64,000 nt of DNA from Morchella semilibera (Eukaryota; Ascomycota; Pezizomycetes; Pezizales; Morchellaceae): NCBI GenBank assembly GCA_009192285.1, contig WBVU01000005.1:186001-250000 (forward strand). The letters are read 5' to 3'. The position numbers and the translations under genes were made by a program. Below the pieces are notes generated by a model. The model did no database searches, was not told the origin of the DNA, and saw only the letters and a list, made by a program, of their open reading frames with translations. Below, piece after piece: positions 8,566-63,900 of this stretch; position 1 is the first letter of the stretch; each line of letters opens with the position of its first letter.

Positions 8566-8690
8566 CTACCGCTAGTACGCATATGAGATCAAAATTGCTA
8601 GAAGCAGACCTGATCTACGCCCTTCAACCGGTCGTGGAGGTAATCCCTGGCCGGAGATAGCCGGTTCGTAGGGTCATTTAGCCGAGAAAT
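8566..8690 (+). repeat. Dispersed repeat R, copy 1
   Basis: The segment with CATATGAGATCAAAATTGCT, CAGACCTGATCTACG and GAGGTAATCCCTGGCCGGAG is shared with 45165-45310 and 50469-50600. All three copies are in the same orientation. No terminal repeats were resolved and the function is unknown. Confidence 0.7.
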
Positions 8691-22292: not shown

Positions 22293-22949
22293 GTCGATGA
22301 TATGATGCTCGTGGTGGTGGTGTTGGGGGCGTTCTGTCTATAGGTTGAAACTGCTCTCTCCAGATATAACAATTCTCACTTTAAATGTTACCCCGCACCT
22401 AAAGGCCCGACGGGGTTGAAGGTCACGTGTGGTTGGTTGGCTTGCACGATTATCAAACAACCCCCTGCATGCCAAGCTGGCTAGCTACGCCTCAATACAA
22501 CTGAACCCCCCCGCCAACACACACACAAAAATCAATAGACTAGAAAGACTGGGTAGATTCAGAATATATCATTTTCCTTGAACGGTCCTCTAGGTAGTAG
22601 CCAAGCCCCAGAAGTAAAACCGGACTCGTTATGTATCTACCCGTACATACCCGAATATGCACTTGGGACTCCAAGCTTTGGTGTTACGGAATGACCACCA
22701 AAATAACTCCAGGGAAAAAAAACCAGTGCTTTTGCTCTACTTCCCCCTCAACAGCGTACATCTAGCCAAGCCACCTTGCCAAGATGCAATGATACGTCGC
22801 CAGAAGATTCCACCCCCCCCCCCATATTCATAGCAGCCTCTAATCTGATACCTCATGCCATTGCCGAAAGCTTCCCCCAGTTGATGATAGCTCCCTATTG
22901 AGACATCTTATAATACCCTACTCCAATTTATGATCTATGTGTGGAAATA
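22293..22949. other. Upstream flank of the ankyrin gene
   Basis: No other gene is seen. There is no strong TATA; a weak TTATATC lies about 70 bases upstream of the ATG on the minus strand. C tracts occur near 22508 and 22810. Confidence 0.45.
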
Positions 22950-25714: not shown

Positions 25715-28700
25715 TTACGCTCCGTTGTGAATGAACGGCGCCCAATCCAACACCCTCCCCATCTGACGATCCTCCACGCCCCTGGCCTTCACAACAGCAT
25801 CATGCAGAGCCCTAGCCACACTGCGTCCCTCCATGACATTCTGGTAGAACCTCTCCGCAACCGCCACACAAACATTATCTCGCCCCTCCCACATCGTCCC
25901 CACAACGTGTCGGAAGCCCGCCATCTGGAAGGCGGCAGCTAGCGTGATCCCTTCGTCCACCAACAAGCTGTCCCCGGTCTGGGCCGTCGAGCACGCTGAG
26001 AGATAGGCTACCACTGCGCATCCGCCCTTTGCAGCCACATCAGCAACGGTGAGCCGTCCACCGTGCAGTAACAGTCCACCACTACTGGGATCCTGGGCGC
26101 TGATGACACCATGGCAGGCAAAATGGACGGCCTGGCAGTCGCTGAGGGACGACAGCACCTCTGGAACCTTGGGGTGCTCCATGAGCTTGGTCGCCACACC
26201 GACGGGCTTTACGATCTCGACAATCCGCTCCAACTCCTTCGTCACACCCTTGAGATCACTCTGGCCTTCGGTCGTCGGCATCGAGACAAGTAACAGATCC
26301 TTTATTGGGCCCGCTGGCTCGGGCTTCTGGCGGGAGTACTGTAGCGCCTTGATGCTTGGTGTGTACGAGGACACGACACGACTTATGGTATTCTTGGTGG
26401 ATCCCTTGGTGTGATGGCCAGCGGCGTGGAAAGGGGCGAGCCCCAGTGGGCCCGTACCGATCCACCAAATATGTGGCAGCTCAGCCCCCGGGGCAGGCGG
26501 GCCGTCGATGCCGATAGCGGTGAGGACGGGAGAAACAACAACATTCCATAGCCAGATCAGTAGCTTCTGCATCTTCTTTGTGCGAACAGCGTAGGTGGGT
26601 ACACCGCCCTTCACGAGATCCTTTACACTGCCTAGGAGTTCCACTGCTCTGTTGGAGTCCCATTTCTCAAGTGCAACGCTCCTAATGGCGGCGCTGGTGA
26701 CTATGATTGCGTCACAGTGGATCACACTTGCGTTAACCACAACTATAGGCCCAGGGGTGGCGAGGGCCATGAGACTCTCTCCGCTCGGCGACCTCAAGAA
26801 GCCTTCATACCCTGACAGACCCCTTACGGTCTGCAGTACTTCCTCCATCCTGGCCATCACAATCTTACGCCGGGCCATCACATTGTCAGGACCAAGTTGT
26901 TGCCATCCTTCTGCATGGGCTGGTGCAGCAAGCCTGTCCTCCATTTCTCTCCGCAATTCCCAAAGCTCCCGGCACAGGTCAGGGTGGTCAGACTGCAGGT
27001 CTGTCATGTCGCTGCGGCAGTCTATAATGAACCCCGCAATAATCCCACGACCCAGCTCAAGCAACTTGAGCGCGTGTTTGGCCCCTTTTCCAACCAGCAG
27101 AGCGCAGGTAGCTGCCCGTGAGGCAATACCAGTGAGCATCGCCAACAGCCGCTGCTGGTCTACACGTGAGAGGAACGGCAAGCTGACCTGCGGCATGAGG
27201 CTCACGCAAGCCTCGTACAGAGCTGCTGCGTCGGTGAACCTCTTAGAACTCATATAAACATGTCCCACCCGCTGTGCGGCGCGGATGCGTACTAGTGGCG
27301 GGGCGGAGATGGTGTTCCATGCGTCAAGAAAGGATTGGTGCGATAACTTCCCGTCCGGCCCCTCGTTCTGCTTTGCCCGGTAGCGCAGGAGATAACATCG
27401 CCCCAGATCATCTAGGACCTCCCCTTGGGCTGGAGTCTCGACGTTGGTGCCACCGCTAGCAGGCTTCAAGGAGAGAATGGCATAATTTAAGGAGAGGATG
27501 GCTGAGTCAATATCGGTGAGCTGCTTAGTATGGCGGAAGCGTGCGCGGAGGAACCTTCCGAAGCGGAGAAGTACTCCGAGGCGTCCTACATTGTATTGCC
27601 CTTCCTCGTCGCTCACGGCCGTACTGGCAAGACCTATTGCCCGCTGGAGGTCGACAAAGAGGATTGGGAGGGTAGTGTAGCGGAGGTAGAGGGCGTCGGC
27701 TAGAATGATCTCGAAGCGGAGTGGTCCACCAAGGCTGCCACTCGTGGCGGTGTCAGAGGCGTCCATGCACAACTCGCCGAGGGTTATGGCAGCGTTGAGG
27801 TCGTCCATTGCGGGTTTGCCGACGCGGCGAAAGCGGTCGATGAGGCGCTGGCAGAGCCGTCCGACGAACCTGGGGCGCTCTCGATGTCCCACAGGTATAA
27901 GGTCGACTGCTTGCCGCGCTACCGAAATGCTCATGTCTATATCCTCCATTGCGCCTAGTCTGTTGTACCGACTCATGAGGTATCCGGATAGGATGTTGAG
28001 GGCACATGCATGAACCATGTCGTCCTCTGGGCCTTCCAAAACACCTCCGTGACAGTGTTCCACCGCTTTCTCGAGATCCGCTGGGTCTCCCGTTCTATCA
28101 TACCGATGCCAGTGCCACTGCGAAAGACTCACACGCCCAAATGCAACTACATCACGCTCGCCCGGTGGGACCCTTGCCAGCTCATCCGTGCAATCCTCGA
28201 TGTTCTTGGCGACTGACAGTATCCAATCGGGCCCATCCAAGGACCGCTGCATCTGCTGTTGGGAAGACATGAAAACCTTCACATGCTGCCTAGTGTGGCT
28301 GCTACCCCCACATGACATCTTAAGCAAAGTCTTGCAATTTTCGATCGCCCGGTCCCGATCCTCGCTAGGAACCCCCTCGCCCCGAAACTTGTACATAGAC
28401 CAGCAGCCAAGCTCTGCCAGCCTGGTTGCATATGCTGGGTCATCCTTCGGTGTCCGTTTCAGTTCCTCCTCATCGCAACGTTTCCCATCTGTCAGATCCT
28501 TATCATTCTTACAGAGTAAATATCGTATTATAAGTAGATCCCTGAGACAAGCAAACTTGCCGGTTTGGTAATGGCTGGTCTTGGAGTCCACCCCCATGAC
28601 CCGCTGGCACACCGCAATGGCGGCATCGAGGTCCACTTTCTGGCCGCTACAAGCAAACTTCTGCGTATGGAGATAGCTAAGAGACATCATGAAATGGAAA

Positions 28701-31120
28701 TATAGTAGACTGCCATCCTCCTCCATTCCTTCCCACGCCATTGTAGCCAGCTCGATTGCCCTGTCTAGGTCCGAGTGCCCCCTCGCTTGCTGCGGGTATC
28801 GCACGGAGTAGTAGTAGGCCAGGGCAATCCGCATCTTGGGAATACAACCACTAGAGCCGGCCCCTTGTAAGGCCATCGCAGCAGTCAGACTCATCTCACC
28901 ATAGGTCAGGGCACTATCGAGGTCCGCCAGGTCCTCCAGCATCCTGTAACGGCTGAAATAGCAGGTGGCCAAACGCTGCACACGCCGGACATACGACCAA
29001 CCCACAGGCTCGGTCACGGTGACAACAACCTCCATCTTTTTCACCGCGAGTGCTATGTCTGCGGTGTTGCCCAACGTTTTGGATCGCATCATGAGGTGCC
29101 CACTGAGGATGTACAGGCGGTCAACATACAACTCGGGCTCCTCGTCCGGATCAATAACCTCCAGTGAAGCCTCTACATAGGCCACTGGGTCCACCCCGAA
29201 GCCAATAGCTGACAATTTAGACTCTAGGTCAGCTAGCTGCGCCACTATATTGTTTCGCATACAAGCCATGGGTAGCCGGCCAAGCAACACGGAAGCAATG
29301 TCCTTCGCCTCAACCAGACTTTGGCGTTCACCGGCTATGCGCGCATAGGTAATAAATAGACTCCACATAGGCAAAAGCATAAACAATGGTAGTTTTCCCT
29401 TATTTTCGACAGCCCCGAGCACTATATTTGACCACCTAATTCCTTCCTCTGCATCACCCCCAAAGTCCGTAGCCAGACATCTCATATGGGCAACCTCTAA
29501 GCGAAGGCGGATGTCCTCGAGGACGGGGTATACCTTTTCTTCGGTGGAATCGAGCACAGCCTCGATAGCGGCCGCAGAGGTATCCAGGTCCCCCAGAGCC
29601 CTACTGGTCTTATAGCGGGTAGCATGGTATCTCGCCAATATTCTCCAGAGCATTGAGTCGTTGGCGCTTAGACCCGTCAGTTCGGTCAGATACGTGATAG
29701 CCATGTTCAACTCTGCCACCTCCCGTGTAGCCATGAATCGGTAATTATGCATATAGCTCAAGGCGAGTAAAAACGAACTTCGACTTTCTCCGCTCTCTGT
29801 TGTCAGGACCCCAGTCAAATATCCCACCGCAATCTCCAGATGTTCCGCCTTCCGCGTAGGTGGGTAGCACCCTTCGTACCAACTACTTAAATCCTTCAGC
29901 GTAGATACCTCTTCTCCTTTGATGTTTATAGCTAATTCCCCACTCAATAGCAGGTCTGCGCCGGTAGGGTTGCCCTGCATCCTCATGATCTGACACATGC
30001 TCACGAGCGGGATCAGCCGAAGAAAACCGGGGAAAAGGTGGAGGCATGACTCGGTGTATTGCAGGGCGAGGCCTAAGCATGTGGGGTCCTCCGTGGACTT
30101 GTAGCGGAGAAAGAAGAGTTGACCGAGTATGAAAAGGGTAGGGTCGTGGTGCGGGTGAGTAGGGGGTATGAGCGAAAGAGCGTGGGTGACTTCTTCGACG
30201 GTAAGGGTTTGCCAGGAACGGCCCTGCAACGAGGAGAAAGTGTAGATCAATGCAGGCCGGTTAACGGTGGTCTCTAGGGCGGTGCCTGTGGTGTCTCCAC
30301 ATGGGGTTTGTCCACACTCCTGTACTGCAGGGACTGCATTTTGGGCCTCCGCAGAAAGTGCTCTCTCTGCGACGATTCCGCTACCTGAGAGGCTTGACAC
30401 TTTGGTATCGGGCTCCGTCGGCATGCATGAACTGGGCTGGGCGGGCCCTGTGGGGTCCTCGAGCTGCTTAACGGGTGGCGCGGCTGACGGGGCACAGTCA
30501 TTCGCACTACTGCCACCCACTGCATCTTCTATACTCCCGCCTCCCAACCCTGATGACCCCGTCACCTCCCTCACTAAAAATGTCAGCCTGAACCCTTGGC
30601 ATCCTAAGAGGGACCCCCCTGCCACTTTAATCTCTGAGCTCCTACCTATCCTCAGCAAGATGGGATACTCAGCCTTATCGGCGACGCTCGCGAACTCTGG
30701 GAGATCTGACAGAGCGTTTTTGCGGCGCATGATGTTGAGCTCCTGCAGGAAGAGCCCCATCCCAATCTCAACCCTAGCCCGCTCTCCCTCATCGGGAAAC
30801 CATCTGGCGATGGCCTTGCCCCGCGGGGATTGTCTGAGCTCATCGAGTCTGGTGCTCACAGGATCCACCTCAAAGTCAGCGGCAGCGTAGTCGGTCTCGT
30901 CGTCTGCTGTCGCTTGGGGTTCCGTGAGCGGCACCATGGAGTTGTTTGTGACAGAACGATTACCTGCAGGTAGCATTTCCCCCGAGCCCAAATCGTCCCC
31001 TGTAGAGGAATCCATCGCTGGCAGTAGCGACTGGCACGTTGGTGGGTGTGGTTGGTCGATTGTATCAGTAGAAGTCAAAGTACGAATGCTGGTATATGTG
31101 AGATTGTTGGCAGGCTGCAC
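25715..31120 (-). CDS. TPR-array CHAT-domain protein (caspase-like), 1801 aa
   Basis: A single exon. The N-terminal ~250 residues are low-complexity and Ser/Pro-rich. Residues ~270-1400 are helical repeats of TPR type with recurring patterns such as LxxYxxSRYxxxGxxxDLDxAIxxAxxAV, where each unit notes one category of co-occurring short helices. The last ~320 residues are a CHAT domain: VHFACHG places the catalytic His at residue 1670 and LSACSTA the catalytic Cys at 1710, followed by a conserved GMxGFRHVVGTMW-like block (here QMAGFRHVVGTMW). Both dyad residues are present, so it is probably an active cysteine protease of the caspase/separase clan. In bacteria TPR-CHAT proteins act as defence proteases (for example Craspase, which pairs with a type III CRISPR effector). 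In basidiomycetes and ascomycetes they are numerous and mostly unstudied. ATG 31120 is the first in-frame start; a second Met (MDSSTGDD) lies 35 codons in. A TATATAAA sits 54 bases upstream. Confidence 0.93.
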   Translation of the reverse strand: MQPANNLTYTSIRTLTSTDTIDQPHPPTCQSLLPAMDSSTGDDLGSGEMLPAGNRSVTNNSMVPLTEPQATADDETDYAAADFEVDPVSTRLDELRQSPRGKAIARWFPDEGERARVEIGMGLFLQELNIMRRKNALSDLPEFASVADKAEYPILLRIGRSSEIKVAGGSLLGCQGFRLTFLVREVTGSSGLGGGSIEDAVGGSSANDCAPSAAPPVKQLEDPTGPAQPSSCMPTEPDTKVSSLSGSGIVAERALSAEAQNAVPAVQECGQTPCGDTTGTALETTVNRPALIYTFSSLQGRSWQTLTVEEVTHALSLIPPTHPHHDPTLFILGQLFFLRYKSTEDPTCLGLALQYTESCLHLFPGFLRLIPLVSMCQIMRMQGNPTGADLLLSGELAINIKGEEVSTLKDLSSWYEGCYPPTRKAEHLEIAVGYLTGVLTTESGESRSSFLLALSYMHNYRFMATREVAELNMAITYLTELTGLSANDSMLWRILARYHATRYKTSRALGDLDTSAAAIEAVLDSTEEKVYPVLEDIRLRLEVAHMRCLATDFGGDAEEGIRWSNIVLGAVENKGKLPLFMLLPMWSLFITYARIAGERQSLVEAKDIASVLLGRLPMACMRNNIVAQLADLESKLSAIGFGVDPVAYVEASLEVIDPDEEPELYVDRLYILSGHLMMRSKTLGNTADIALAVKKMEVVVTVTEPVGWSYVRRVQRLATCYFSRYRMLEDLADLDSALTYGEMSLTAAMALQGAGSSGCIPKMRIALAYYYSVRYPQQARGHSDLDRAIELATMAWEGMEEDGSLLYFHFMMSLSYLHTQKFACSGQKVDLDAAIAVCQRVMGVDSKTSHYQTGKFACLRDLLIIRYLLCKNDKDLTDGKRCDEEELKRTPKDDPAYATRLAELGCWSMYKFRGEGVPSEDRDRAIENCKTLLKMSCGGSSHTRQHVKVFMSSQQQMQRSLDGPDWILSVAKNIEDCTDELARVPPGERDVVAFGRVSLSQWHWHRYDRTGDPADLEKAVEHCHGGVLEGPEDDMVHACALNILSGYLMSRYNRLGAMEDIDMSISVARQAVDLIPVGHRERPRFVGRLCQRLIDRFRRVGKPAMDDLNAAITLGELCMDASDTATSGSLGGPLRFEIILADALYLRYTTLPILFVDLQRAIGLASTAVSDEEGQYNVGRLGVLLRFGRFLRARFRHTKQLTDIDSAILSLNYAILSLKPASGGTNVETPAQGEVLDDLGRCYLLRYRAKQNEGPDGKLSHQSFLDAWNTISAPPLVRIRAAQRVGHVYMSSKRFTDAAALYEACVSLMPQVSLPFLSRVDQQRLLAMLTGIASRAATCALLVGKGAKHALKLLELGRGIIAGFIIDCRSDMTDLQSDHPDLCRELWELRREMEDRLAAPAHAEGWQQLGPDNVMARRKIVMARMEEVLQTVRGLSGYEGFLRSPSGESLMALATPGPIVVVNASVIHCDAIIVTSAAIRSVALEKWDSNRAVELLGSVKDLVKGGVPTYAVRTKKMQKLLIWLWNVVVSPVLTAIGIDGPPAPGAELPHIWWIGTGPLGLAPFHAAGHHTKGSTKNTISRVVSSYTPSIKALQYSRQKPEPAGPIKDLLLVSMPTTEGQSDLKGVTKELERIVEIVKPVGVATKLMEHPKVPEVLSSLSDCQAVHFACHGVISAQDPSSGGLLLHGGRLTVADVAAKGGCAVVAYLSACSTAQTGDSLLVDEGITLAAAFQMAGFRHVVGTMWEGRDNVCVAVAERFYQNVMEGRSVARALHDAVVKARGVEDRQMGRVLDWAPFIHNGA

Positions 31121-31173
31121 ATCCGTAGGTAGAGAGACTAGTACAGAAGGACAAGAGGGGTGTCTCTATGTGC

Positions 31174-41088: not shown

Positions 41089-42821
41089 TCACGGTTTCGA
41101 CCTTACCCGACGCGTTTCCAGTTGTGCATCGCGTAGCTCAGTTGTGAGCTTGCTGAGCCCGCTGAGCTCAGGCCGTAACCTTGTAGAACGCACTTCCAGC
41201 GGCACCTCGCGTAGCTCACCCGAGACCTGGGTAGGCTGGGTCAGTACCTCCGACTTTACAGGACGCCTTTCCAGCGGCACATCGGGTAGCTCAGCCGCTA
41301 ACTCGATGGTCTCAATCGGTACCTGCGGCTTTATAGGGGGCCTTTTCGGTGGGTTAGGTAGCCGCGACCCTACACGACGCCTTTCCAGCACAATCGGTAC
41401 CTGTGGCTTTGTAGGGGGCCTTCCCGGCGCGGTCATTAGCTGCGACTTTGTGGAGCGCCTTTCCAGCACGGACGCGGTGCGGTCAGTCGGTGGCTGCGGC
41501 TTTGTGGAGCGCCTTTCCGGCGGCGCCTCGCGTAGCTTAGCCGCGAGCTCGGTGGGCTCAATCCATACCTTCGACTTTACAAGACGCCTTTTTAGCGGAG
41601 TCGGTACATAATGTCGCTCAGCCACTAGCTCGATGGGCTCAATCGCCGCTACATCCTCCCGCCCGATCGCCGCTACACACCCCTGCTCAGCCACTAAACC
41701 ATTCCGCATGGGCTCGCGCGGGTTGATCCAGGTGTGCTGAAGAGCCTCGGAGGCAGATGGGCGTGCGTCTGGCAGGAACTGCATTGTCTTCTTTATGAAA
41801 TCAACTAGATCCCACGGTGCCGAACTGTTTGTCAAATGAATATCGGGGAAGAAAGTTTGATTGTGGGAAAACTTTGACAGCATGTTGCGACTAGGTCGAG
41901 CCTTGAGGTGTATCTCCGGGTTGTGATGTATGGTGGTGCAAGTCGTGGTTCGGTCGTCAGGGCATATGCAGAATGGTGCGATTCCGGTGAAGATCTCGTG
42001 AGCAATCGCGCCCATAGCCCAGATGTCAACCGCGTTGGTGTATTCGCTTGTGTCATCATTGTATCCTAGTACTTCCGGTGCCATATATTTCGGCGTGCCA
42101 GTTTCGGTTTGCATAATACTCGCAGATGGATCGGTGGACTTTGAAGCACCGAAGTCCGCAAGCTTGACTTTCGGTGGATATCTACATGCAATAAGAATAT
42201 TCTAATGAACCTAGGTAGTTAGCCTTCAGGGTATGCATCAATAATTTTATTCAGCTCTACGGGGGAATATAACGCACCTCCGGCTTGAGGTCACGATGGC
42301 AAAAGTACCTGGAGTGCATTACTTCAAGTGCTGTCAGTATCTGAGTAATGATTACTCTGCAGTGTTCCTTGGCACAATCCGGGTCTCTTCCCATATATAC
42401 CCGGAGATCACCTTCCTCAAGATATTCCATGGCGATACAGATAGAGTTATTCCCCTCATACCAACCAAACAAGGTAACAAACAGGTCGGTATCCTAGGAA
42501 AAATAACTAGTTAGTAAACGGGTGTCTAACCGGGGTTGAGATAACTACCTCGCGAAGTGCTATCATCGCTTTCAACTCGCTTGCGATCGTTTTGTTATTC
42601 ACAGTCACACCCGGGCGCAGGTAGATCTCTTTGACGGCACGATAAGATCTTCTACCACGGCCCACCAAGCTATGGCGAGAGACAGCACCGAATGTTCCGT
42701 CCCCCAATGAATTTTGTACCTCCCAACGCTCTGTGATTCCATTTCGTGAGTTTATAATAACGTCTTTCTCGACTATTACATCGTATTTGAAAGATCCGAA
42801 ACTCGGTGGGTTTCCCGACAT
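41089..42821 (-). CDS. Serine/threonine protein kinase with repetitive basic tail (533 aa)
   Basis: Three exons: 42821-42549, 42493-42278, 42201-41089. Introns are 42548-42494 (55 nt, GTAGTT..ACTAAC..CCTAG) and 42277-42202 (76 nt, GTGCGT..CATTAG). Both junctions restore the kinase fold exactly: the second splits HRDLKPE|N. Motifs: glycine loop LGDGTFGAV (39-47), AVK (Lys64), alpha-C Glu82, HRDLKPEN (Asp159), ADFG (Asp179), TGTPKYMAPE (Glu206), DIWAMG. All catalytic residues are present, so it should be active on Ser/Thr. The family resembles fungal CAMK-type kinases, but no FHA or other targeting domain is present. The tail after the kinase domain (about residue 330 on) is built from degenerate 20-25 residue units with ELAAELRxxPLExRxxKxxP, possibly a binding surface. 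No pathway can be assigned. Confidence 0.88.
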
Positions 42822-43599: not shown

Positions 43600-44900
43600 T
43601 GCCCAAACACCGCCCCGAAACCCCGATATTCCAGTCTCCCCTGCTTAGCTACGTCGCCAGCTGGCCGCAGCACCCACACCACCTGAGGAGGGAGACCCGC
43701 TCGCGTCGAAGCCCAATGAACCGCTCCGAACCCTACCCACTTTCTATATCAGCGTTCTTTGCCTCAGTCCATAGCTTCCTCGAGAGCGGTTGCTATCACG
43801 AGCAGTTTCCCGTGCTCACACATGGTTCCAGCGCTGGGGGCTTGAGCTAAACAAGCACCCCCGGCTACCTAGCCTCCCCCCTCCCCCTCCCCCACCACAA
43901 TCCAGGTATGTCCTAACATACAGATCTAGAGCTACGCATACGACGCCCCCCTCGCGCCTTTACTCTACCACGCCGGGAAATGCATCAAATGATGCATTAT
44001 CGACACATTTCCCATACAAAACCGGGCATGATAATGCATCCCTTGATGCATTACCTGTCGATGGCTCTCTTGAGAGATATGCATCATGCATTTCATGACA
44101 ACCTTACCACCATTTTGCGAGGATGTCATTAGGAAAGAGGAGGTCATCAGGAAATGTATCAGGAAATGTATCAGGAAAGTGACCTGATAGCCATAGACTC
44201 GCTTGATAAGAGCCATATCATATCATTATTATATCAATTGATGGTCTAGCTGGTAAGACATGCAATTTGTTAGTTGAAACACTCACGTTCAATTCCCCCG
44301 TACAGAATAGTATTTTTTACTGGATCATATATATCCTGTTACAGATCCCTTTACTGATTGGAAAGTCGTCAAATGGGACCGGGATGCATATGCCGGTGCA
44401 TTCGCCGATTCATATGTATCTACATTAATACGAAGGATGCAATTCATGACGCACCTTGAGACCCATTTTCGATGCATTACCTGGCGTAGTAGAGTTCCTA
44501 TTTGTAGTATAGTCACCTCAGTCCACGGTGCGCTCACCACCTGGATGTCGGACATCCGCCCTGATCTCCGTATTTTTCTCTCTGCCGAGGAACGGCCGCA
44601 CGTGGTGCTTGCTGGGTCGGTGCGCCAGCCGGATGCAGCCTTCTTTTATGCGCGAGTCTCAGCTTATGGGCGGTGCTGGCGTGATTCTTTCCCGGAGGTG
44701 ATGTTTGGGGCAACCCCTTCAAGCAGCGGTATAAGGAGGTGGCGGAGGTGGCCAGTGTGTGATTGGCAGAAGCAGCTTAACATTATCAAAGAGGCTGGAG
44801 CTCACTCGGAGGCGCCATCGCGCAGCTCTGCGCCAGGGGGAGGAGGAGAGCGGGATAGGGGCGACGACGCAAATTGCACTCGAAGAAGGGGCCGCCAGCT
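43600..44900 (+). pseudogene. Relic gene A, left copy, interrupted by a SINE-like element
   Basis: A GC-rich leading part (ATG at 43600, MPKHRPETPIFQSPLLSY...) is followed by a C/T-rich intron-like stretch, then by 44515-44860, which aligns with 52071-52440. Shared features are CCTCAGTCCACGGT, a segment reading VHGxLxxWxxDIxPDLRxxLSAE, and FKQRYKEVAEVASV (44729-44770) against FKQWYDKKMVEVARV on the right. Neither copy stays open for long, and the frame breaks differ, so both look decayed. A tRNA-like element (44045-44486) sits in the intron-like part of this copy only. The function of the ancestral gene is unknown. Confidence 0.5.
44045..44486 (+). mobile_element. tRNA-like (SINE-like) repeat, copy 2
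   Basis: It is collinear with the minus-strand copy at 23478-23929: A box GGTCTAGCTGGT (44243-44254), B box ACGTTCAATTCC (44285-44296), then TACTGGATCATATATAT and GGAAAGTCGTC. GATGCATTACCTGTCG at 44045 and GATGCATTACCTGGCG at 44471 mark the ends. A partial extra unit with the GATGCATTA motif lies just upstream (about 43979-44040). Confidence 0.75.
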
Positions 44901-45164: not shown

Positions 45165-45310
45165 TATATACCGCCGTTGCTCGGAAGACTGGCTATGTAT
45201 ATGAGATCAGAATTGCTGTGGGCGGGCCTGATATACGCCCCCCGACCAACCGTAAAGGAGGTAATCCCTAGCCGGAGATAGCCAATTTCTTAGAGTTTTT
45301 GCGGTACTGC
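45165..45310 (+). repeat. Dispersed repeat R, copy 2 (left border of the array)
   Basis: It aligns with 50469-50600 (ACCGCCRTTRCTCG, GGCTATGYATATGAGATC, GAGGTAATCCCT, CCAATTT) in the same orientation. Together the two bracket the four-gene array. Confidence 0.75.
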
Positions 45311-45623
45311 GGCCGACGGCCGCGGTGCATGTTCCAAGAAATGGGTATTATACTCAGGGTTAGGGTTATCTACCACTATTCGTTCATTTGGAAAGGTCTG
45401 ACCTTGGGATTAATGGATACTTAACTTCCTTTTCATACGTCCCGAAAAACCCCCCATGATAGCACAAAAACGCAAAAAGGAAGGAGGGAAGGCAGGGAGA
45501 AAAAAAACAGACCACGCAATTCATCGATATTAAGCATGTATCTGTCTACATAGAGCCTCCATTTTGGCTGGCTGTTAACTGGTGCTAATGGCCGCAGTGA
45601 TGTACATCTTACTTATATGCCTG

Positions 45624-46358
45624 CTACACCACCTCCAGATATCCCTCATCATCAAACAGCCCCCTATATCTCGCCAGCTCTACCACCGTCTCCAACATAA
45701 GCCCCCTCATGTACCCGTGACGTGTAAGTTTCAGGTTTGCATAACAAAACGCCGCCATGTGCCTCGCTCTCTTGACCGTACTCTCATTATACAACTTATC
45801 ATCACCCAATGCCGGATAATCCTGATACCGGCTTGTCTCCTCTAGGCGGAGTCCAAGCGCGGCAAGACCCCCAAAGATCTCATCCGCGGTCGGCCAAGAG
45901 CTTGCTGTTCCTCGGGGGAACATGACACGAATCCTCCGCTTCAGGAAGCTATCGAGCTCCAGTAGCGCGGCGTGGGGTAGTGCGTCGACGTCGGCCATGT
46001 GGGCGCGGCCTAAACAGCCGGTCAGATTGGTCTTGGCCATCTGCCTGAAGATCTCGGGGGAGCCGGCGCCGCGTCCGGTGGCGGTGTGGAGGGGGGGTGG
46101 CGCAGGGGCAGGGGTGGTGGTGATTGCCTGTTCGACTTGGAGACGGGCAACGGAGGAGGCGAGGTGGGTGTTCACACTGTTGGTGGCTTTGAGCTCGGCT
46201 TGGAGTGTGTTTATTATGGACTGGAGGGCGGCGACGTCGGTAGGGAGGGGGTCGGCGGAGGGGGTTGTGGTGGGTTGGGGAGCGGGGGGGCTCTTTGATG
46301 GGACGGTAGGTTTATCCGGGGGTTTACTCGGTGGGACGCTGAGTTGGGCGAAAGACAT
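45624..46358 (-). CDS. Unrecognised array gene, copy 1 (244 aa)
   Basis: I do not recognise this family. The protein begins with a Pro/Ser/Thr-rich stretch. Then comes a short heptad-like helix (LPTDVAALQSIINTLQAEL, about residues 39-75), a Pro/Thr linker, and a conserved C-terminal domain of ~150 residues. Family hallmarks: SPEIFxxMxKTN, GRLGRxHMxxVDAL, ELDSFLRRKL, FPxG, LAALGLRLED, RARHxxAxxYAN, ETxVELARYRGLFD, GFLxxE. The domain has no signal peptide, membrane segment or obvious catalytic motif and appears helical. It is open throughout. It is the most diverged of the three intact copies at its start and ends in YLEVV. A run of 21 G on the plus strand (C in the transcript) lies 13 bases upstream of the ATG. 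Confidence 0.75.
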   Translation of the reverse strand: MSFAQLSVPPSKPPDKPTVPSKSPPAPQPTTTPSADPLPTDVAALQSIINTLQAELKATNSVNTHLASSVARLQVEQAITTTPAPAPPPLHTATGRGAGSPEIFRQMAKTNLTGCLGRAHMADVDALPHAALLELDSFLKRRIRVMFPRGTASSWPTADEIFGGLAALGLRLEETSRYQDYPALGDDKLYNESTVKRARHMAAFCYANLKLTRHGYMRGLMLETVVELARYRGLFDDEGYLEVV

Positions 46359-46371
46359 AGTTTGGGAGCTT

Positions 46372-46392
46372 GGGGGGGGGGGGGGGGGGGGG
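46372..46392 (-). repeat. Poly(C)21 tract in the leader of array gene copy 1
   Basis: Twenty-one consecutive G on the plus strand directly precede the start region of the minus-strand gene. Tracts this long are unstable in replication. Effects on expression are only a possibility. Confidence 0.85.
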
Positions 46393-46700
46393 CGCGTGTA
46401 TGAACTTGGTCGAGTATCGCGGATGGCAGAGGGTATCGGGTCCTCTTAAGGGGCAAACCTGTTGTCAGAAAAAAGAGGGGTCAGATTTCCATCAGGGTTA
46501 GGGATATTTCTCATCTCTCATACATAAATGTCATGTGACCTCTAGTTCTTGCTGTAGAAAACATCCTGCTAAGTATTTTGCTGTCTTATCAAATCCCCAC
46601 GAGTCCATAAACCTCGCAGGTTGCTACTTTACTTTGGTCAATCATTCCTACATAAGCGACGCTGATGCATGAGAGAGATTTCACAAGGGCAAAGTTCTGC

Positions 46701-46711
46701 ATCTTTTATAG
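46701..46711 (-). promoter_or_regulatory. Possible TATA box for array gene copy 1
   Basis: CTATAAAAGAT on the minus strand lies about 345 bases upstream of ATG 46358 and 100 bases beyond the stop of copy 2. It sits in a block (ATTGGATGCCTG) repeated upstream of each array gene. The distance would require a long leader or a leader intron. Confidence 0.3.
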
Positions 46712-46811
46712 ATTGGATGCCTGGTTATTTTGTATATTGGCACCGCGGGTGCCCACAAGTGATAGATTGTATAAATATATTCCCATTCAATCCCCACCCC
46801 TGCCCGCACTA

Positions 46812-47561
46812 CTACTCCTCCTTCAGGAACCCCTGGTAATCAAACAAGCCTCGATACCTCGCCAGCTCCACCAACGTCTCCAACGCAAACCCAGGCCAAT
46901 ACCCATCATGGGTTAATGCTCGATTTGCATAATAATACGCCGTAAGGTGCCTCGCCCTGTTGGCTGTGCTGTCTCCTTTCATCTTGTCCTCAGCCAAGAT
47001 CTTGAAATCCGTAAAGCGACCTCTATCCTCAAGCCGGATCCCCAGAGCGGCGAGACACCCAAAGATACTATCTGCCTCGGGCGTCTTACGTGATTCGCCT
47101 TTAGGGAGGATCGTTTGCAGCTTCCGCCGCAGGAAGCTGTCTAGCTCTGTCAGTGCCGTGGCAGGGAGGGCATCGACTTCCACCATGTGCGTACGGCCGA
47201 GACGGCCGTGCCAGTTGGTCTTTGTCATTTCCTGGAAGATCTCGGGTGACGCCGCGCCACGCCCGGAGGCCACGGTGAATGGCTGAATCGGATTCGGGCA
47301 AGGGAGGGGTGCAGTGGTGAGGATGCGGGTGGTGTTAGTGGTGGTGGTGGTACTGGCGGTGGTAGGAGTGGAGGTTTCCTGCTGGGCCTGGAGACGGGCA
47401 GCACAGACGGCAAGGTGGGCGTTTACGCTATTGGTGGCTTGGAGCTCAAGGAGGGTATTGATCATAGAGTGGAGGGATGGGACATCAGTGGGGAGTGAGT
47501 AACCTGGAGCTGTGGTGGCTTGCGAAACGATGGTGAACGTTGCAGGCACACCCTCATCCAT
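46812..47561 (-). CDS. Unrecognised array gene, copy 2 (249 aa)
   Basis: Same family and orientation as 45624-46358, with the same order: heptad-like LPTDVPSLHSMINTLLELQ, Thr-rich linker, then GRGAASPEIFQEMTKTN, GRLGRTHMVEVDAL, ELDSFLRRKLQ, LAALGIRLEDRGR and LARYRGLFDYQGFLKEE. It is closer to copy 4 than to copy 1. Upstream, an ATG at 47677 (MSLFGNNPQTGG) and a GTAAGTCC donor-like site at about 47620 with a CACTAAC branch match those of copy 4, suggesting a 5' intron. The exact start (47561 or a spliced upstream exon) is not settled. Confidence 0.75.
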   Translation of the reverse strand: MDEGVPATFTIVSQATTAPGYSLPTDVPSLHSMINTLLELQATNSVNAHLAVCAARLQAQQETSTPTTASTTTTTNTTRILTTAPLPCPNPIQPFTVASGRGAASPEIFQEMTKTNWHGRLGRTHMVEVDALPATALTELDSFLRRKLQTILPKGESRKTPEADSIFGCLAALGIRLEDRGRFTDFKILAEDKMKGDSTANRARHLTAYYYANRALTHDGYWPGFALETLVELARYRGLFDYQGFLKEE

Positions 47562-48158
47562 AGGCGGGTTAGTGCGGCGTCTTCAGGATCGCAGCCCAGA
47601 ATCAAGGGTCCAGGACTTACTGTTACTGAAGAACTGAGCTCCTCCGGTCTGTGGATTATTACCGAATAAAGACATGGTCGAAGGACTTAGAGGGGAATTT
47701 GCTTGAGGGGTGTCGTAGATTTGGAGTCCCAGAGACAACTAGGAGAGGTATTTGAAAGAACTTGCTGTCGGAAAAAGAGGGGTCACATTTAATACAGGAT
47801 TAGGTGTATCTCCTGTCGGTATTAGGCAAAGATCAGCATCTTTCATTTGGATGCCTGATTACGGCCCACGAGCGATACATTACATAATTATCCAATCGCA
47901 CCTTGCTATGCCGGATGGCCAAGATAGACTTCGAGCAACTGGGAAGAGGCCAACTCGATGGAAAAAAACCAGTCACGGGCGGAGATCACCATATCTTATA
48001 CGGGATAGCAAATTGATTGCGCAATAGAAGAAAAAAAAAGAAGAAAAAAATAGATCCCCCAGAGAACTCCGTACGGGATAACAAGGAATCCGGCATATTA
48101 AATTCTGCCATGGTGCGGTGAAACTGTATGCACTTTCGATCCACCACCCCCGCCTGCG

Positions 48159-48795
48159 CTACTCCTCTTCTTTCAGTAATCCCTCGTCATCAAACAAACA
48201 CGATACCTCGCCAGCTCCACCAAAGTCTCCAACGTCTCCGACGCAAACCCATGCCAATACACATTATGCTTCCTTTGTAGATTTGCATAAAAATACGCCT
48301 CGCTTTCTTGGCCGTACTGTCGGATTTCATCGTCTCGTCTTCAAATATTGAGGAGTCCGCATAGCGACCTCTATCCTCCAGTGGGATCCCCAGAGCGGCG
48401 AGACACCCAAAGATACTATCTGCGTCAAGCGCCTTACGTCATTCGTGGATCATTTGCAGCCTCCGCCGTAGGAAGTTGTCGAGCTCCGTTAATGCTGTGG
48501 GGGAGAGGGCACCAACGCCCGCCATGCGCGTGCGGCCGGGGCGGCGGTGTCAGTTGGTATTTATAATTTACTTAAAGAACTCGGGCAAGGCAGCACCACG
48601 TCGGGAGCAATGGTACGTGGGTGGTCCGGGTGGGAACATGGGACGACGGCAGTTATGGTGGCAGGAGTGGGGGGGGGGGGCGGTGGTGGTGGTAGGAGAT
48701 GGTTGTGCCAACTCGATCTGGAGGCGGTTGGGGCAGGCGGCGAGGCGGGCGCTGGCGCTGGTCGCAGCCTCGACCTCGAGTAAAGTCTGGATCAT
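48159..48795 (-). pseudogene. Unrecognised array gene, copy 3, decayed
   Basis: Homology to copies 2 and 4 runs end to end: MIQTLLEVEAATSASARLAA, GAALPEFFK, TALTELDNFLRRRLQMI, DADSIFGCLAALGIPLEDRG and a final KEEE-like end before the stop at 48159. It has an in-frame stop after EFFK, a short deletion region and at least two later frame changes, so it cannot make the full protein. The upstream Thr-rich linker is replaced by GC-rich low-complexity sequence. Confidence 0.8.
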
Positions 48796-49354
48796 GGCGC
48801 GGAGGGTTGGGGGTCAGTGGGGGGGGGAGGGGGGTAACCTCTTACTGTAACTCTGGGGGCTGTTGCGGGACCCCCCCAACCGGCAGAAAAGCTTCGAGCT
48901 GTGGGGAGGGGCGCGGGGCCCAATGGAAAGGTTGATGACATCTTATCCGAGCCTGGTTGTGGGGTTAGCGCGAGGTGTTACTATCTGGAGGGCGGGGGTG
49001 GGGAGGGGAGACGGAGGGACGGGAAACTAATTGTGAGGATCATACGTGACATGGCCGAAGAACTTGAGATCAGGAGGGAGATGGTGGATGGGGATGGGGA
49101 TTTGTGTACTTTGACTTTGGAAAGCGAGCTGGCACAAAACAAGAGAACACATCCACTCAGGGTTAGGTATCATTTCTTATCTTAATTAGTCAAAAATCAG
49201 ATGCTTAGATTGGATGCCTGATTTCCTGTTCCGTACGTGCATAGCCTATAGATGATAGCGCAAGACAACTACAGCTCTCTTATTTCTGTTCTGTACTGTA
49301 CCGGCAGTTGGTGCACTAGGGGTAGTACATTCTATTATCTCCCCCGTTCTGCAA

Positions 49355-50263
49355 CTACTCGAGTTTCAAAAATCCCTTATCATTAAACAGCCCCCGATAT
49401 CTTGCCAGCTCTAAAATGGTCTCCATCGCAAACCCCCGCCAGTAGTTCTCAGTCCCCTTTTCTGAATAGTACCACGCCGTATATTCCGACCCCCTTCTCA
49501 ACGTGGGCTCGTTTATCACGGCAATATCACTGGTATGCTTCTTTCCATAATGGCCTCGATCCTCCAGCCGAAGTCCCGCCGAAGCAAGAGTCTCGAAGGT
49601 CTTGTCGGAATCGGTTGTTGCGTTGTGGGGGCATTGTACGCCGCGAGGAAAGAAGGTATTCAGCTTCTGCCGCAGGAAACTGTCGAGCTCGGCTAGTTTC
49701 CCGTCACAGAGGGCGTCAACTTCCACCATGTGCGTGCGACCGAGACGGCCGTGCCAGTTGGTCTTGATAATCTCCTTAAACACCTCCGGCGAGGCAGCAC
49801 CTCTCCCGGAGGCGACCATGCATGAGTGGTTCGGATGCGGGCATGGGAGGGGGGCAGTGTTGGTGGTGTCATTTGGAGTGTCATTCGGGGTGCTCGTAGT
49901 GGTGGTAGTGGTGGTAGTGGTAGTGGTGGTAGGAGCGGGGGTTGCCTGCTCGGTCTGAGCGCGGGCGATCGCGAGGCAGGCGGCGAGGTGGGTGTTGGCG
50001 GTAGTCGTGGCTTGGAGCTCAAGTAGATTGTTGATTATGGAGTGGAGGGTGGCGACATCAGTCGGGAGGGAGTAGTTTAGGCCTGCGGTGGGTTGGAAAA
50101 CACTGGGGCGCCCTGCGGGATCTTTCTTATTTGGAGGCGGGGTTAGCGCAGTGTCTAGTGGGGAGGGCGGGCAGGGCAGGAAAGCAAGTGAGGACTTACG
50201 TTCTCTGTGGATCTGGTCTCCACGGGGGTCATAACGGGGTACGTACATGTTGGTCGAAGGCAT
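49355..50263 (-). CDS. Unrecognised array gene, copy 4 (302 aa)
   Basis: The longest copy. After an N-terminal extension it has SLPTDVATLHSIINNLLELQ, a poly-Thr linker encoded by a (GTGGTR)n tract on the plus strand, then VASGRGAASPEVFKEIIKTN, GRLGRTHMVEVDAL, ELDSFLRQKLNTFFPRG, ASAGLRLEDRG, and LARYRGLFNDKGFLKLE. The N-terminal ~60 residues contain a GTAAGTCCTC donor-like site with a GCGCTAAC branch and AAATAAGAAAG end. Removing 78 nt keeps frame, and a homologous site exists in copy 2. So residues ~25-50 may be intronic. The start at 50263 is the first ATG; a second lies five codons in. It sits at the upstream end of the array. Confidence 0.75.
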   Translation of the reverse strand: MPSTNMYVPRYDPRGDQIHRERKSSLAFLPCPPSPLDTALTPPPNKKDPAGRPSVFQPTAGLNYSLPTDVATLHSIINNLLELQATTTANTHLAACLAIARAQTEQATPAPTTTTTTTTTTTTSTPNDTPNDTTNTAPLPCPHPNHSCMVASGRGAASPEVFKEIIKTNWHGRLGRTHMVEVDALCDGKLAELDSFLRQKLNTFFPRGVQCPHNATTDSDKTFETLASAGLRLEDRGHYGKKHTSDIAVINEPTLRRGSEYTAWYYSEKGTENYWRGFAMETILELARYRGLFNDKGFLKLE

Positions 50264-50468
50264 TCAAGATTTGCCTAGTGGGGGGTGCCGGTGGATGGAC
50301 ACTTCGTGTTGAAGAATAGTTGAGGGTGTGAGTTGGGGTTATTGAAGTTTTATGTGGGTTTGCTGTATCTTAGTGCGTAGACGGGAATGTGTCCTTTAAA
50401 AGGAATATTACTCTACCTACCCCGCATCAGGCCTGAGACTTGGCGGTGAACCAAAAATTGTTGGCTTG

Positions 50469-50600
50469 GCGCATACCGCCATTACTCGAAAAACTGGCTA
50501 TGCATATGAGATCAAAATTGCTATAAGCGGACCTGATCTACGTCGACCAAGGGAGGTAATCCCTGGCCAATTTTTCGAGTTTTCGAGTTTTTGCGGGTAT
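50469..50600 (+). repeat. Dispersed repeat R, copy 3 (right border of the array)
   Basis: Same orientation as the copy at 45165-45310, about 5.3 kb away. It is also similar to 8566-8690. It lacks the CCGGAGATAG part that the other two share. Confidence 0.75.
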
Positions 50601-51959
50601 AACGGTATTTCGGGCATTCCATCACTTACCACCTATCGTTGTGGGGTATTGCCGTAGCTTCAAGACTACATGCAATTATAATGAGGTAAACAAAAAACAA
50701 TCAGTACAGGGCTCTCTTTGATACAATCGGGAGAACGTTTTGGTAGAGAATACTGCCAATGCGAAAGGTTTGAATGACTTAAGATTCTCCTTCAACCGAG
50801 CAAAAGGTCTTTGGCTTTAGCACTAGTCCGACCCAGCTAGGCGTTGATTTGAACTCATTCGACCCTGAGATTAACAAACCTAACCCTGTTTATAAGACCC
50901 CTACCCCGCAGATCTCTCTAGGTTGGTCCGCTAATTGCATTCGTAGCCCTTTAGGAATTGTCAAACCCTTTCTTCCTTTAAACCGTACCCCAAACTTAGC
51001 TCACTTAAGACTTAATCACTTAAGGGAAAGCATTTTGTAGTGGCAATTCGTTATTAGTGGGGGCCAAGGGCTTTCGCGGGTCCTGATAAGGGGTATTAGA
51101 CTTTGGAGGTTGCGGAAGGTGTAGGGAGGGTTTCTAAACTAGAATGCGGAATACGTAAAATCATACCGTTGCGAAGAAGCTGAATTCCTTATTTTTTTCG
51201 ATTTCGGTCCCTATAAGATAGATATTGAAGCTCCTTGCAGATTGCGTCCCCGCCGCTCTAAAACTCGAGCAGCTTGTATCTACGAGCTATGGGTCGGTAC
51301 CTGAGGGGGCCTCTTATGCAGCCCTAATGTTGCATGACCTACGGCAACGAGTCATGAGATTAATCGTCCCTGGAGTAACGAACGATGTGGCAATGTAACA
51401 TGAGTGGAGCTGAGGAATGAAGTATTACCACAAACGGGGAACCGAATCAAAAGGGCAACCTAATACATTTCACATATATACTAACCAGTGGCATCCGCCT
51501 AGTGGGCTCGGCTCGGCGTTCTATTATTCTTTCTCATAGGTTACCTAAGTACTGAGCAGATTGCCTAGTGTTTGGAATCAACCGAGGTCCTGCGCCAGCG
51601 TTAAGAGCGTATGTACCCCATATTTTCTTAACCCCGCCCTCATTGCTCCAGCCGATCTAGGCTCGTGTGAGAGATCTAACAGATAGTGGGACCAGCTCGG
51701 AAAATCATAACAAATTTTTATCTTCATTTACCCTTATTTTTTCTTCTCTTTATCTGATTTTCTTTGGTCTCGTTTTTTTTCTTTCTCTTGCCCTCCTCCT
51801 TCTTCTTGTGGGGTGAAGGGGTCTGGGGGATGCGGCTCACAATCGGAGATAGCAAGTACAAAGTGATCGTGAGGCCAGATCTGTCAATGAAAGTTTAACA
51901 TAAAAGCGGGTGGTATAACCCATGAATATCAAGCCCATACTACCCTCCCTGTAGGAGCG
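50601..51959. other. Intergenic, with pyrimidine tract
   Basis: No supported gene. 51715-51815 is a long T/C-rich tract on the plus strand. Confidence 0.45.
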
Positions 51960-52652
51960 AATACTCTCTTGCCAAGTATCAACGTGCACAATTTACTAGC
52001 TACCCCCCCCCCTCCAATCACAACCCAGGTATCATGTATCTATGTGCTAGCATACATACTTGGCATGAATACCTCAGTCCACGGTACGCTCAACATCTGG
52101 CTGCCGGACATTCCCCCCCCGATCTGCGTACCGTCCTCTCCGCCGAACACCGAACAATAAAAGAAGGCTACAAGCGAGTCTGGGTGCTAGCCAAATGCAG
52201 CCTTCCCTTACGCGAGTCCCAACTGATCGGCGGTCCTTTCCCGCGGGGGGAGGGGGGGCGTTGTTTGGGGCTGCTTTCAAGCAGTGGTATGATAAAAAGA
52301 TGGTTGAGGTGGCCAGAGTGTGGTTGACAAAAGTCGGAAAGCAATATTGGTGTTGGTGGATATCGAAGAGGGCTCTATTGCGACTGTTGGGGCTTACTCG
52401 GAGGTGCCGTCGGGGACAGCCCAGCACCGGTGGCGGGGCAGAAGCGAGGACGAGGACGAGGACGAAGATGAACTCGGCGGGAAGCAAATGGAGTCGGAAC
52501 GCTCCCCGCCACCCCTCCGCCTCCAGGAGTTCCACGATATCTGTGACACCTCGTAGTGGGTTGGCCCCTCCCACGGCCACCGTCGAACTTTTCCGCCCCC
52601 CTGGCAACGAAATAGTCCTTGCGTACCCTAATACGTATGTCCTTTTGATCTA
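51960..52652 (+). pseudogene. Relic gene A, right copy
   Basis: It aligns with 43880-44860 without the inserted tRNA-like element: a C-rich stretch, an AYCCAGGTAT intron-donor-like site, then CCTCAGTCCACGGT and the conserved part with LRTVLSAEHR and AFKQWYDKKMVEVARVW. The last frame (to 52653) is open but changes character into Arg/Thr-rich sequence. The frame is broken before that. The promoter and first exon seen on the left are not recognisable here. Confidence 0.5.
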
Positions 52653-60953: not shown

Positions 60954-63900
60954 ATGTCTAAATGTCAAGGGATGGACGGGACACACCCATCGACGCCCGG
61001 CGGCTCGGGTGACAGCGTCGTTCTTAAACGTCAAAAGACGGACGAGGCACGCCCGCCGCCGGGCGGTGGGTTGCTCGCGCGCTCAGAGAAGCCAGGAATC
61101 ACCTTGAGACTATCCAACATTCCTGCGGAAGTATCTAAACACCAATTACGCAAAATATTAAACAGCCTACCCAGTGATCCCCAGAGAAAAGAAGAAAGTG
61201 TGCTAGGATTATCGCTTACGCCATCAGAAGTATCTTCCGACGAATCATCCCAAGTGGCGACTGTAACATTCCGCTCAACTCCATCCTGTCTCCGGGGATC
61301 GCCAACCTCAATGGCTCTTGATGTTCTTGGAGGGGCCTTTTTGGATTATAACTTTTTTGGCATGACACCCTTAAACAGTCCAGCGGAACCGGTGGTTGAG
61401 TATGTTCTGTCCGCTTTAGCCTTCAGAAGGGGAAGATGAGGATAATAACTCTTTTAGTATTATCGCTATCACTGGGCTGGCAGGCCATGCGTTTGGGTCA
61501 TGGAGGTCACGCAGGGATTATACCATGTGGCTGAGGGACTCACTCCCAGCACATGTCACCAATGCCCGTATTCTGACTTATGGCTATGACTCAACGCTAC
61601 TCAACAACAAATCAAATGCCTCCATTCACGAGTTCTCCCAGTTATTCCTCCAGGCTCTTGTTACTGTCAGAGCTTCCGAAAAGGTGATTATACGCCAACC
61701 ACTCATATGATGCCTCGCTAACGGGCTTTAGGAGCAATCCCGACCTATTATCTTTATTGCTCACAGCTTAGGCGGCCTTGTGGTTAAACATGTAAGTGTC
61801 CTTGTTCTGGTCGATTCTATTGTCTGCGTAAAGACAACGGAGAGTATCCTAACCAAATAGGTACTCTGTAATCATCGGTCGGTACTAGCATCATGCCATG
61901 CACTTCTCCTCTTTGGGGTGCCCCACCATGGCTTAGATGTGGTAGCGCTCAGGTCTATGGTAAAGGGTCAACCAAATGCAAGATTAATCGAAGACCTCGA
62001 TGAGTCATCGAATTTTCTTCGCCTCCTCGAGCAGTTTTGGAAATCTCATAGAACAGCTGGAATCAAGATTATTTCCATATACGAGACAAAAACAACCGCT
62101 ACTGTCGAAGTAGGAATGCCAATACCAGTCCTTGAGATGACTTGAAAGCTAATAACCTTTAGAAAACGCCACAGGGCTGGGAACGGACTGGTCCAGAGGT
62201 CATAATGGTGAAACAGTATTCAGCGACAGCCGCGAGTACATGCCCGGAAGATATTTTCCCCATCGATCGTAACCATTCCGATATAGTGAAATTTGAGAGC
62301 GAAGGATGTCAGTACTACAATATTGTTAAACAAAGGATAGGAGACTTGGTGAAGGATGTGCAAGGTTTGAACAGGAACATCCCCAGCCATGAAGGTTTTT
62401 GCTAACATTGTAATAAGATGGGCCATGGGTCAAACTTGAAAGTATGATGTATCCCAGTTCCCCAGAGTGGCTCCCGGAGTCTCAGCGGGGACTATGGTCC
62501 TGATTTTCCTTGATCAGTAATCCGGGGTTCATTGATGATTTATACTACTGGTAGCCTTTGATGCTAACTAGTGTTTAGATACCAAACGGCAAGAGATATT
62601 GCGTTGGCTTTTGACAATAGAGTTTGAAGATCATCACTCTTTCAATTCTACCCGTCGGCAGCAAGGGAGCGGTATATGGCTCTTGGAGAACAATATGTGG
62701 AAAAGGTGGGCCACGGGTGATGAATCGTCAATTCTTTGGCTGCGGGGTGATGGTAACGTTGCCCTACTCAGCCAATCAGCCTGCGAGACTAACTTTATAT
62801 TCAGCCGGGTCCGGTAAAACCATGTTGACGTAAGAATTCCTGCCCGAATGATTTCAACGAAACTTATTTTAGAAAGGTCCTTCGTGATCGACACCCTGAA
62901 GATCGAGGCCAAGAGCGATGATCATATCCTTGTATACTTTTACTGTGACTATAAGGAGCCGAAGCGCCAGGAACCAGTTCCAATCCTTAATACCATCGTT
63001 AAGCAGTTCTGCTTAAAAAAATCGTTAGGTGAGATAAAGATACCCAGAATTGTGCTGGATGAGTACAAAAAACGAGAGGATCAGGGTCATTCCGCTGGTG
63101 CCTTGAATATGAATGAATGCAAAGACTTGCTTCTCGTATTATCAAGTTACTACCTCAAAACAACTATTGTCATCGATGCGCTGGACGAGTGTAATCAGAA
63201 CACACGCTGTGGGCTGTTCAATGCCCTGAAATGCATTGTTTCTATGTCCCGGAGTAAAGTAAAGATATTCATCACCAGTCGATATCACGATGACATCGAG
63301 AGAGCCTTCGGGGATACGATACATTACTATCTCTGTGCAGATGATAATCAAAAGGATATTGAGGGGTTCATCGAGGAAGAGGTCAACCGCCGCTGCGAAC
63401 CCCAAAGGCTCAAGGATACTGATTTGCCCCTACTTTCTGGCAAGGCCGTACCAGCTGAGCTCAAGACTGAGATTATTTCCACCCTAAAGTCTAGGTCATG
63501 TGGAATGTATATCCCCACCTCCCTTAAGTGCCCTCTTACCCGTTCCTAACAGCATGTTTAGGTTCCTGTGGGCACAACTTCAGGTCCTAGCCCTCTGCAA
63601 CGAGAGAACGCATAGTGGCATGAGAAATGCCTTGCGGGAGCTCCCGAATACCTTGTCTGAGACGTACAGTCGCATGCTTTATCCGAGCAAGCATGCGCAG
63701 TCCAGTCGGAATCAGCTCCAGGGGCACCGTATTCTCAGATTTCTAATGAACGTCGAGACGAGGTGGTCACAAGAACTTATCTTACAGGCCCTTGCCGTTC
63801 AGTGCGGGAGAGACACATTTGACGATGACATCTTAAGTCTTGAGCGTCCAGACATCCTGACAATCTGCCAAAACCTCGTGGTTTACAACGATAAACTAAA

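Follow-up and report, generated by a model that had tools for sequence, protein, structure and literature searches.

Tandem Gene Array in Morchella semilibera

The region analyzed here is a 64,000-nucleotide window of the genome of the ascomycete Morchella semilibera (C21:186001-250000, where C21 is contig WBVU01000005.1 of an assembly with 56,756,124 bases in 23 contigs). Its main feature is a head-to-tail array of four copies of one protein-coding gene family, encoded on the minus strand at 45.6-50.3 kb of the window. Three copies are open (W1, W2, and W4) and one is decayed (W3), and in an ungapped repeat search the four are in register, with spacings of 1188, 1339, and 1204 nt. A first-pass annotation of the same DNA had described four copies, three open and one decayed, at ~1.2-1.35 kb intervals on this strand, and the open frames, protein match, and spacings bear this out. 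The outer limits it gave (45165 and 50600) do not mark gene ends but two copies of one short repeat.

The stop-to-stop open frames extend over 45624-46445 (W1, 273 aa), 46812-47582 (W2, 256 aa), and 49355-50263 (W4, 302 aa). W1 (45624-46358) was read as a single exon from an ATG at 46358 to the stop, with no intron model, and encodes a coiled helix, a Pro/Thr linker, and a C-terminal domain. For W2 (46812-47675), splicing was read by eye, with a first-exon ATG at 47675, a GTAAGT donor at 47620, a CTAAC motif near 47573, and a second exon in the frame 46812-47582; no canonical acceptor was seen by eye at the family position, hence the N-terminal model is uncertain. W4 (49355-50263), which carries the domain at its 3′ end, was modeled from its open frame with an ATG at 50263, a donor at 50199, CTAAC within 50149-50136, and a candidate AAG acceptor near 50126. 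Protein and repeat searches place W3 at 48159-48828 (match limits, not gene limits), and the stretch 48274-48828 aligns to W2 residues 29-219 with three TGA and one TAA codons inside. This decay is present in both assembled copies of the scaffold, C21 and C22, which are 100% identical across the array and possibly not independent.

Genome-Wide Distribution of the Family

The family occurs genome-wide and not in one array only. A protein search of the genome returned 52 matching pieces with W2 as query, and 69 with a divergent copy as query at a looser cut-off. After merging of the pieces and of the duplicated scaffold C22, the count is 18 copies whose domain frame is open, and relics besides; they form five clusters, divided between two distinct scaffolds, and one of these scaffolds is present twice in the assembly. 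Six of the open copies are located on C5 (208-216 kb), and C21/C22 carries three at each of four places (C21-style coordinates): 231-236 kb, which is the window array, 805-811 kb, 844-871 kb, and 1560-1566 kb. The open status of D1, D2, and E1 is taken from the C22 version, as C21 has short indels there. Decay is seen in W3, in C5_a, which has a single in-frame TAG, and in relics on C5, C7, and C14; neither W3 nor C5_a is part of the 18-copy analyses. Copies from one cluster do not group together in the tree (those of B do so weakly, and a single inner branch is strongly supported). This may mean that copies were moved or exchanged from one cluster to another, or that the clusters predate the members they now hold.

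The scaffold pairs C21/C22 and C12/C13 gave the same matches at near-equal coordinates, which suggests that these scaffolds are duplicated and the genome size is inflated. Five stretches of C21 and C22 were compared: three are 100% identical and two about 99.4%. The differences, mostly short indels with a few messy stretches containing substitutions and one N run in C21, were taken for residual assembly error.

Protein Architecture, Selection, and Recombination

The encoded proteins share a layout of a short variable N-terminus, a predicted helix, a Pro/Thr linker of variable length, and an all-alpha domain of ~150 residues. By its predicted form, the helix N-terminal of the linker looks like a coiled coil. 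The domain motifs quoted at first pass (G-LGR-HM, VD-L, ELD, and YRGL) show little or no variation across the 18 aligned copies, where 35 domain residues are invariant, and the alignment also confirms that this C-terminal domain is better conserved than the linker. The domain is balanced in charge (K+R 17-23, D+E 17-23; isoelectric point, pI, 5.4-9.1), and inspection by eye showed neither a signal peptide nor a membrane segment in the family proteins.

The coding sequence of the family is under purifying selection. The proportion of synonymous differences (pS) exceeds that of nonsynonymous differences (pN) in 153/153 domain pairs, which share ancestry and are not independent, with a median nonsynonymous to synonymous ratio (omega) of 0.32; the corresponding values for the helix are 133 of 136 comparable pairs and 0.37. 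Selection at the protein level had been proposed at first pass, and the dN/dS test across copies agrees, with a domain omega of about 0.32 rather than 1. The closest pair, B1-B2, has dS 0.36, dN 0.08, and omega 0.22, but B2 is a mosaic. Median pS among domain copies is 0.56, i.e., about half of the synonymous sites have diverged.

Three conserved segments of the domain alternate with three variable ones. The conserved segments (W2 domain residues 1-53, 69-88, and 126-152) have mean pN of 0.17, 0.21, and 0.18, with pS of 0.49-0.60; the variable segments (residues 54-68, 89-105, and 106-125) have mean pN of 0.42, 0.48, and 0.41, with pS of 0.64-0.75. Among the 151 domain columns, 27 have a pN of 0 and 21 have pN > pS. 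As judged from the aligned copies, the domain is a fixed framework with variable stretches, and evidence of positive selection is absent.

Recombination is apparent in cluster B, where the middle copy, B2, tracks B3 from the helix across the linker and the start of the domain, after which it tracks B1 to the end. At the 192 informative sites (B1 and B3 differ, and B2 equals one of them), the first 73 split 69:4 and the last 119 split 13:106 (B3:B1). The switch point is inside the RLGRAHMV codons, and 0/2000 shuffles do as well. This copy reads as a clear recombinant of its array neighbors B1 and B3, with the breakpoint in the RLGRAHMV core.

First Intron and Upstream Box

For 13/18 copies, a permissive search run with no control allows a phase-1 GT-AG first intron to be modeled, complete with a branch-like motif; the weakest models are those of D2, E2, and E3. 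The 5′ introns anticipated by the first-pass annotation can be modeled in much of the wider family; within the array, W1 has none, and W2 lacks the canonical acceptor noted above. One to three FG pairs occur in six of the 13 modeled first exons and in the W2 first exon (by eye). Membership of the FG nucleoporins was rejected: many FG repeats were looked for, and one to three pairs at most were found.

A short box, ATCAGGCATCCAAT, is located upstream of three of the array copies. On the minus strand, a pattern scan places it at 49209-49222 (W3, exact), 47846-47859 (W2, 1 mismatch), and 46712-46725 (W1, 1 mismatch). Genome-wide there are seven exact matches (~0.4 expected by chance at equal base frequencies; 0 for the reversed control), and six are upstream of family copies, representing four different ones: C5_d, C5_f, W3, and B1, the last two in both C21 and C22. 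At no more than one mismatch, the box is found upstream of 9/19 copies scanned. The signal in the window alone is modest (three matches, a number reached by 2/100 shuffles). We infer that ATCAGGCATCCAAT has been kept by selection as a putative regulatory element, because elsewhere the copies differ at about half of their synonymous sites.

The seventh exact match, at C2:6583-6596, is near a contig end and has no family match nearby in the genome protein searches; it may mark a lost or diverged copy.

The proposal that intergenic blocks were duplicated together with the genes is supported, with corrections. A ATTGGATGCCTG block is present upstream of W1, W2, and W3 (0-1 mismatch) and not of W4, and a AGAGGGGTCA block was found by the ungapped repeat search at W1 and W2 and nowhere else.

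Searches for a Known Family or Fold

Pfam and NCBIfam profiles gave no match at the curated cut-off for the family proteins (18 copies in Pfam), PHROGs gave none at an expectation value (E) of ≤1 for three domains, and PDB sequences none below E 0.5. Structure predictions were built from the three window proteins. The full-length prediction is poor, with a predicted template modeling score (pTM) of 0.46; the model of the W2 domain alone (46815-47276, minus strand) is usable, with a pTM of 0.71 and a mean predicted local distance difference test score (pLDDT) of 68.4, although pLDDT falls under 50 in residues 1-29, a stretch that takes in some of the conserved core. This model is helical except for isolated bridge residues, and a fold search with it against PDB and BFVD returned nothing below E 0.7. 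Pattern-seeded scans of viral and prokaryotic collections yielded 21 and 44 candidate stretches, respectively, among which no relative was confirmed. In the literature, nothing was found on such a family in morels (the best-ranked matches do not mention Morchella), and an eight-letter motif was found in no paper. As far as the libraries searched reach (Pfam, NCBIfam, PHROGs, PADLOC, PDB, and BFVD), the family is without assignment, much as the first reading of the DNA had it.

Several weak matches were considered and rejected. The 23 PDB fold matches include eight to the bromodomain proteins BRD2/3/4, and a bromodomain was rejected because these matches have E 6.5-9.7 and a root-mean-square deviation of 12 or more. 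A single weak PADLOC match to DruD (E 0.0082) was taken as chance, since the other 17 of the 18 copies have none. Weak matches to ATG16 and Tektin cover the coiled-coil part, and those to COG6_N (4/18 full-length copies, best E 0.064; 0/18 domains) were treated likewise. The P-loop nucleoside triphosphatase (NTPase) that marks STAND proteins and NOD-like receptors (NLRs) had no Pfam match in 18/18 copies. Transposase, integrase, and reverse transcriptase matches were likewise absent from the 18 copies and from the 10 window open reading frames (ORFs) searched.

Repeats and Neighboring Genes

The short repeat at the array edges occupies 45165-45304 and 50473-50612, both on the plus strand, and its two copies (compared over 45168-45304 and 50473-50596) are 74% identical. 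By its ends it resembles a miniature inverted-repeat transposable element. The repeat also occurs at window positions 8576-8674 and on three other loci of the family (L039, L040, and L049). Inside the array, the upstream block of W1 is interrupted at about 46514-46686 by a dispersed element of ~173 bp, similar stretches of which were found by genome search on several other contigs. A second duplicated sequence flanks the array (44515-44772 and 52071-52333; 68% identical, same orientation).

Neighboring ORFs encode a long ankyrin-repeat protein (18597-22337, minus strand), a CHAT-domain protein with weak TPR matches (25715-31165, minus strand), part of a protein kinase (41089-42201, minus strand), and an NPHP3_N NACHT-like protein (62818-63549, plus strand).

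Elsewhere in the assembly, a short 5.8S rRNA fragment was identified by pattern match and by eye at L056 (C19:2699622), in otherwise unrelated sequence. Full ribosomal DNA was not found in the genome with the two 5.8S patterns used; one gave no match and the other this fragment alone.

Interpretation

The array is best explained as a cluster of a selected multigene family with birth-and-death marks, the proteins of which would form an intracellular, oligomeric set of adaptors or recognition modules. We give this whole statement a probability of about 0.6, weighted to its first part. The birth-and-death marks themselves are present: the copies stand in tandem and have diverged, some are decayed, and one is a clear recombinant. 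The proposed function of the proteins, as intracellular oligomeric adaptor or recognition modules, is tentative, and was ranked ahead of a role as nucleic-acid-binding regulators.

To the selection, segment pattern, recombination, and shared structure found in the analyses, the functional part of this explanation would add intracellular location, oligomerization, partner binding, and co-regulation. The coiled coil would gather several domains into an intracellular oligomer, in which the conserved core (GRGA-S-E-F...N--G-LGR-HM--VD-L...YRGL) would hold the fold and meet a shared partner while the variable segments take on different ligands or partners. The family would then serve as a collection of adaptor or recognition modules, and the common upstream box probably lets many copies answer one regulator. 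A bolder version is improbable as a whole: the all-alpha domain would itself be new, would combine a fixed core with three variable segments, would sit on a coiled coil, and would recombine between array neighbors within its most conserved core, and the family, co-regulated by one box, would be a fungal intracellular recognition repertoire outside the NLRs.

Several observations weigh against this explanation. The adaptor or recognition function is conjectural, and the searches gave no functionally characterized homologue to support it directly. Mean pN is not above pS in the variable segments, and their pS is raised as well, so relaxed loops fit as well as diversifying ones. The C5_g helix is out of frame with its domain (by eye), five of the 18 copies (C5_b, C5_g, W1, W2, and B2) are without a first-exon model, and 10 of the 19 scanned copies, W4 among them, are without ATCAGGCATCCAAT at one mismatch. 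NPHP3_N genes are ~13 kb from open copies of two clusters and > 100 kb from the other three, among the matches listed (150 of 206 candidates scored); with three clusters so distant, no general linkage to such receptor genes is shown.

A different function would follow if the domain were a divergent nucleic-acid-binding or chromatin domain of the BEN type and the family comprised transcription or chromatin regulators, which we consider unlikely. The order F...N--G-LGR...VD-L--AL-ELD-FLRRKL---P resembles the BEN motif, coiled coils are common in BEN-type and chromatin proteins, and the family proteins were seen by eye to have neither signal peptide nor membrane segment. On the other hand, the domain charge is balanced, Pfam results name BEN for none of the 18 copies, and a BEN domain is named in none of the 23 Foldseek match titles (E up to 10), although the model used has weak parts; a whole-genome search with PF10523 also gave no match, but this is weak evidence because the controls were silent too. 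The profile and fold tests were negative or silent, and the BEN assignment is not supported. That the family is already known or annotated in other fungi, outside the libraries used here, has a substantial chance of being true, if one somewhat short of even: the 25 closest domain pairs, with dS mostly 0.6-1.4, point to old duplications, and relatives would then be expected in other morels, whereas Pfam-A, the most general library used, gave no match at the curated cut-off. This possibility is compatible with a selected birth-and-death family of adaptors and bears on novelty.

The copies could instead be cargo or relics of a transposable element, as dispersed short repeats flank and interrupt the array and the clusters are not monophyletic in the tree. 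This is very unlikely, given that the copies have diverged yet remain under purifying selection, that they sit in a handful of clusters instead of being dispersed, that many have the same intron position and upstream box, and that the 10 window ORFs searched gave no match to a transposase or reverse transcriptase. Least probable of all is a dead array, in which the open frames are remnants of a family in decay. The decay of W3, C5_a, and the relics on C7 and C14 would fit it, as would the acceptor missing from W2 (by eye) and the box missing from W4, but 18 long open domain frames, an omega of about 0.3, and 35 invariant residues argue otherwise.

Comparison With Known Systems

Whatever its function, this is a well-bounded gene family from a group of edible fungi, and it offers a set of conserved residues, a box that may be regulatory, and one copy documented as a recombinant. 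Were the selected family indeed to encode a new recognition module, it would represent a further class beside the NLRs in fungal self/non-self or microbial sensing; should the domain turn out to be ordinary, an annotation gap is still filled.

The fungal NACHT/STAND receptor repertoire (NPHP3_N, PF24883) is expanded in the same genome (at least 125 matching pieces) and has one gene 12.6 kb from the window array; unlike those receptors, the family proteins have no NTPase match, and three of the five family clusters are > 100 kb from the NPHP3_N matches listed. The BEN domain (PF10523) is similar in its motif order and in being all-alpha, and differs in giving no profile match, nor a fold match with the partly weak domain model, and in length, with 76 positions in PF10523 against about 150 residues in the morel domain. 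Tandem multigene families under birth and death are a well-known kind in eukaryotes. Although the morel domain, unlike such families, matches no curated family searched, the array resembles them in its tandem copies, decayed members, dispersed clusters, recombinant member, and purifying selection.

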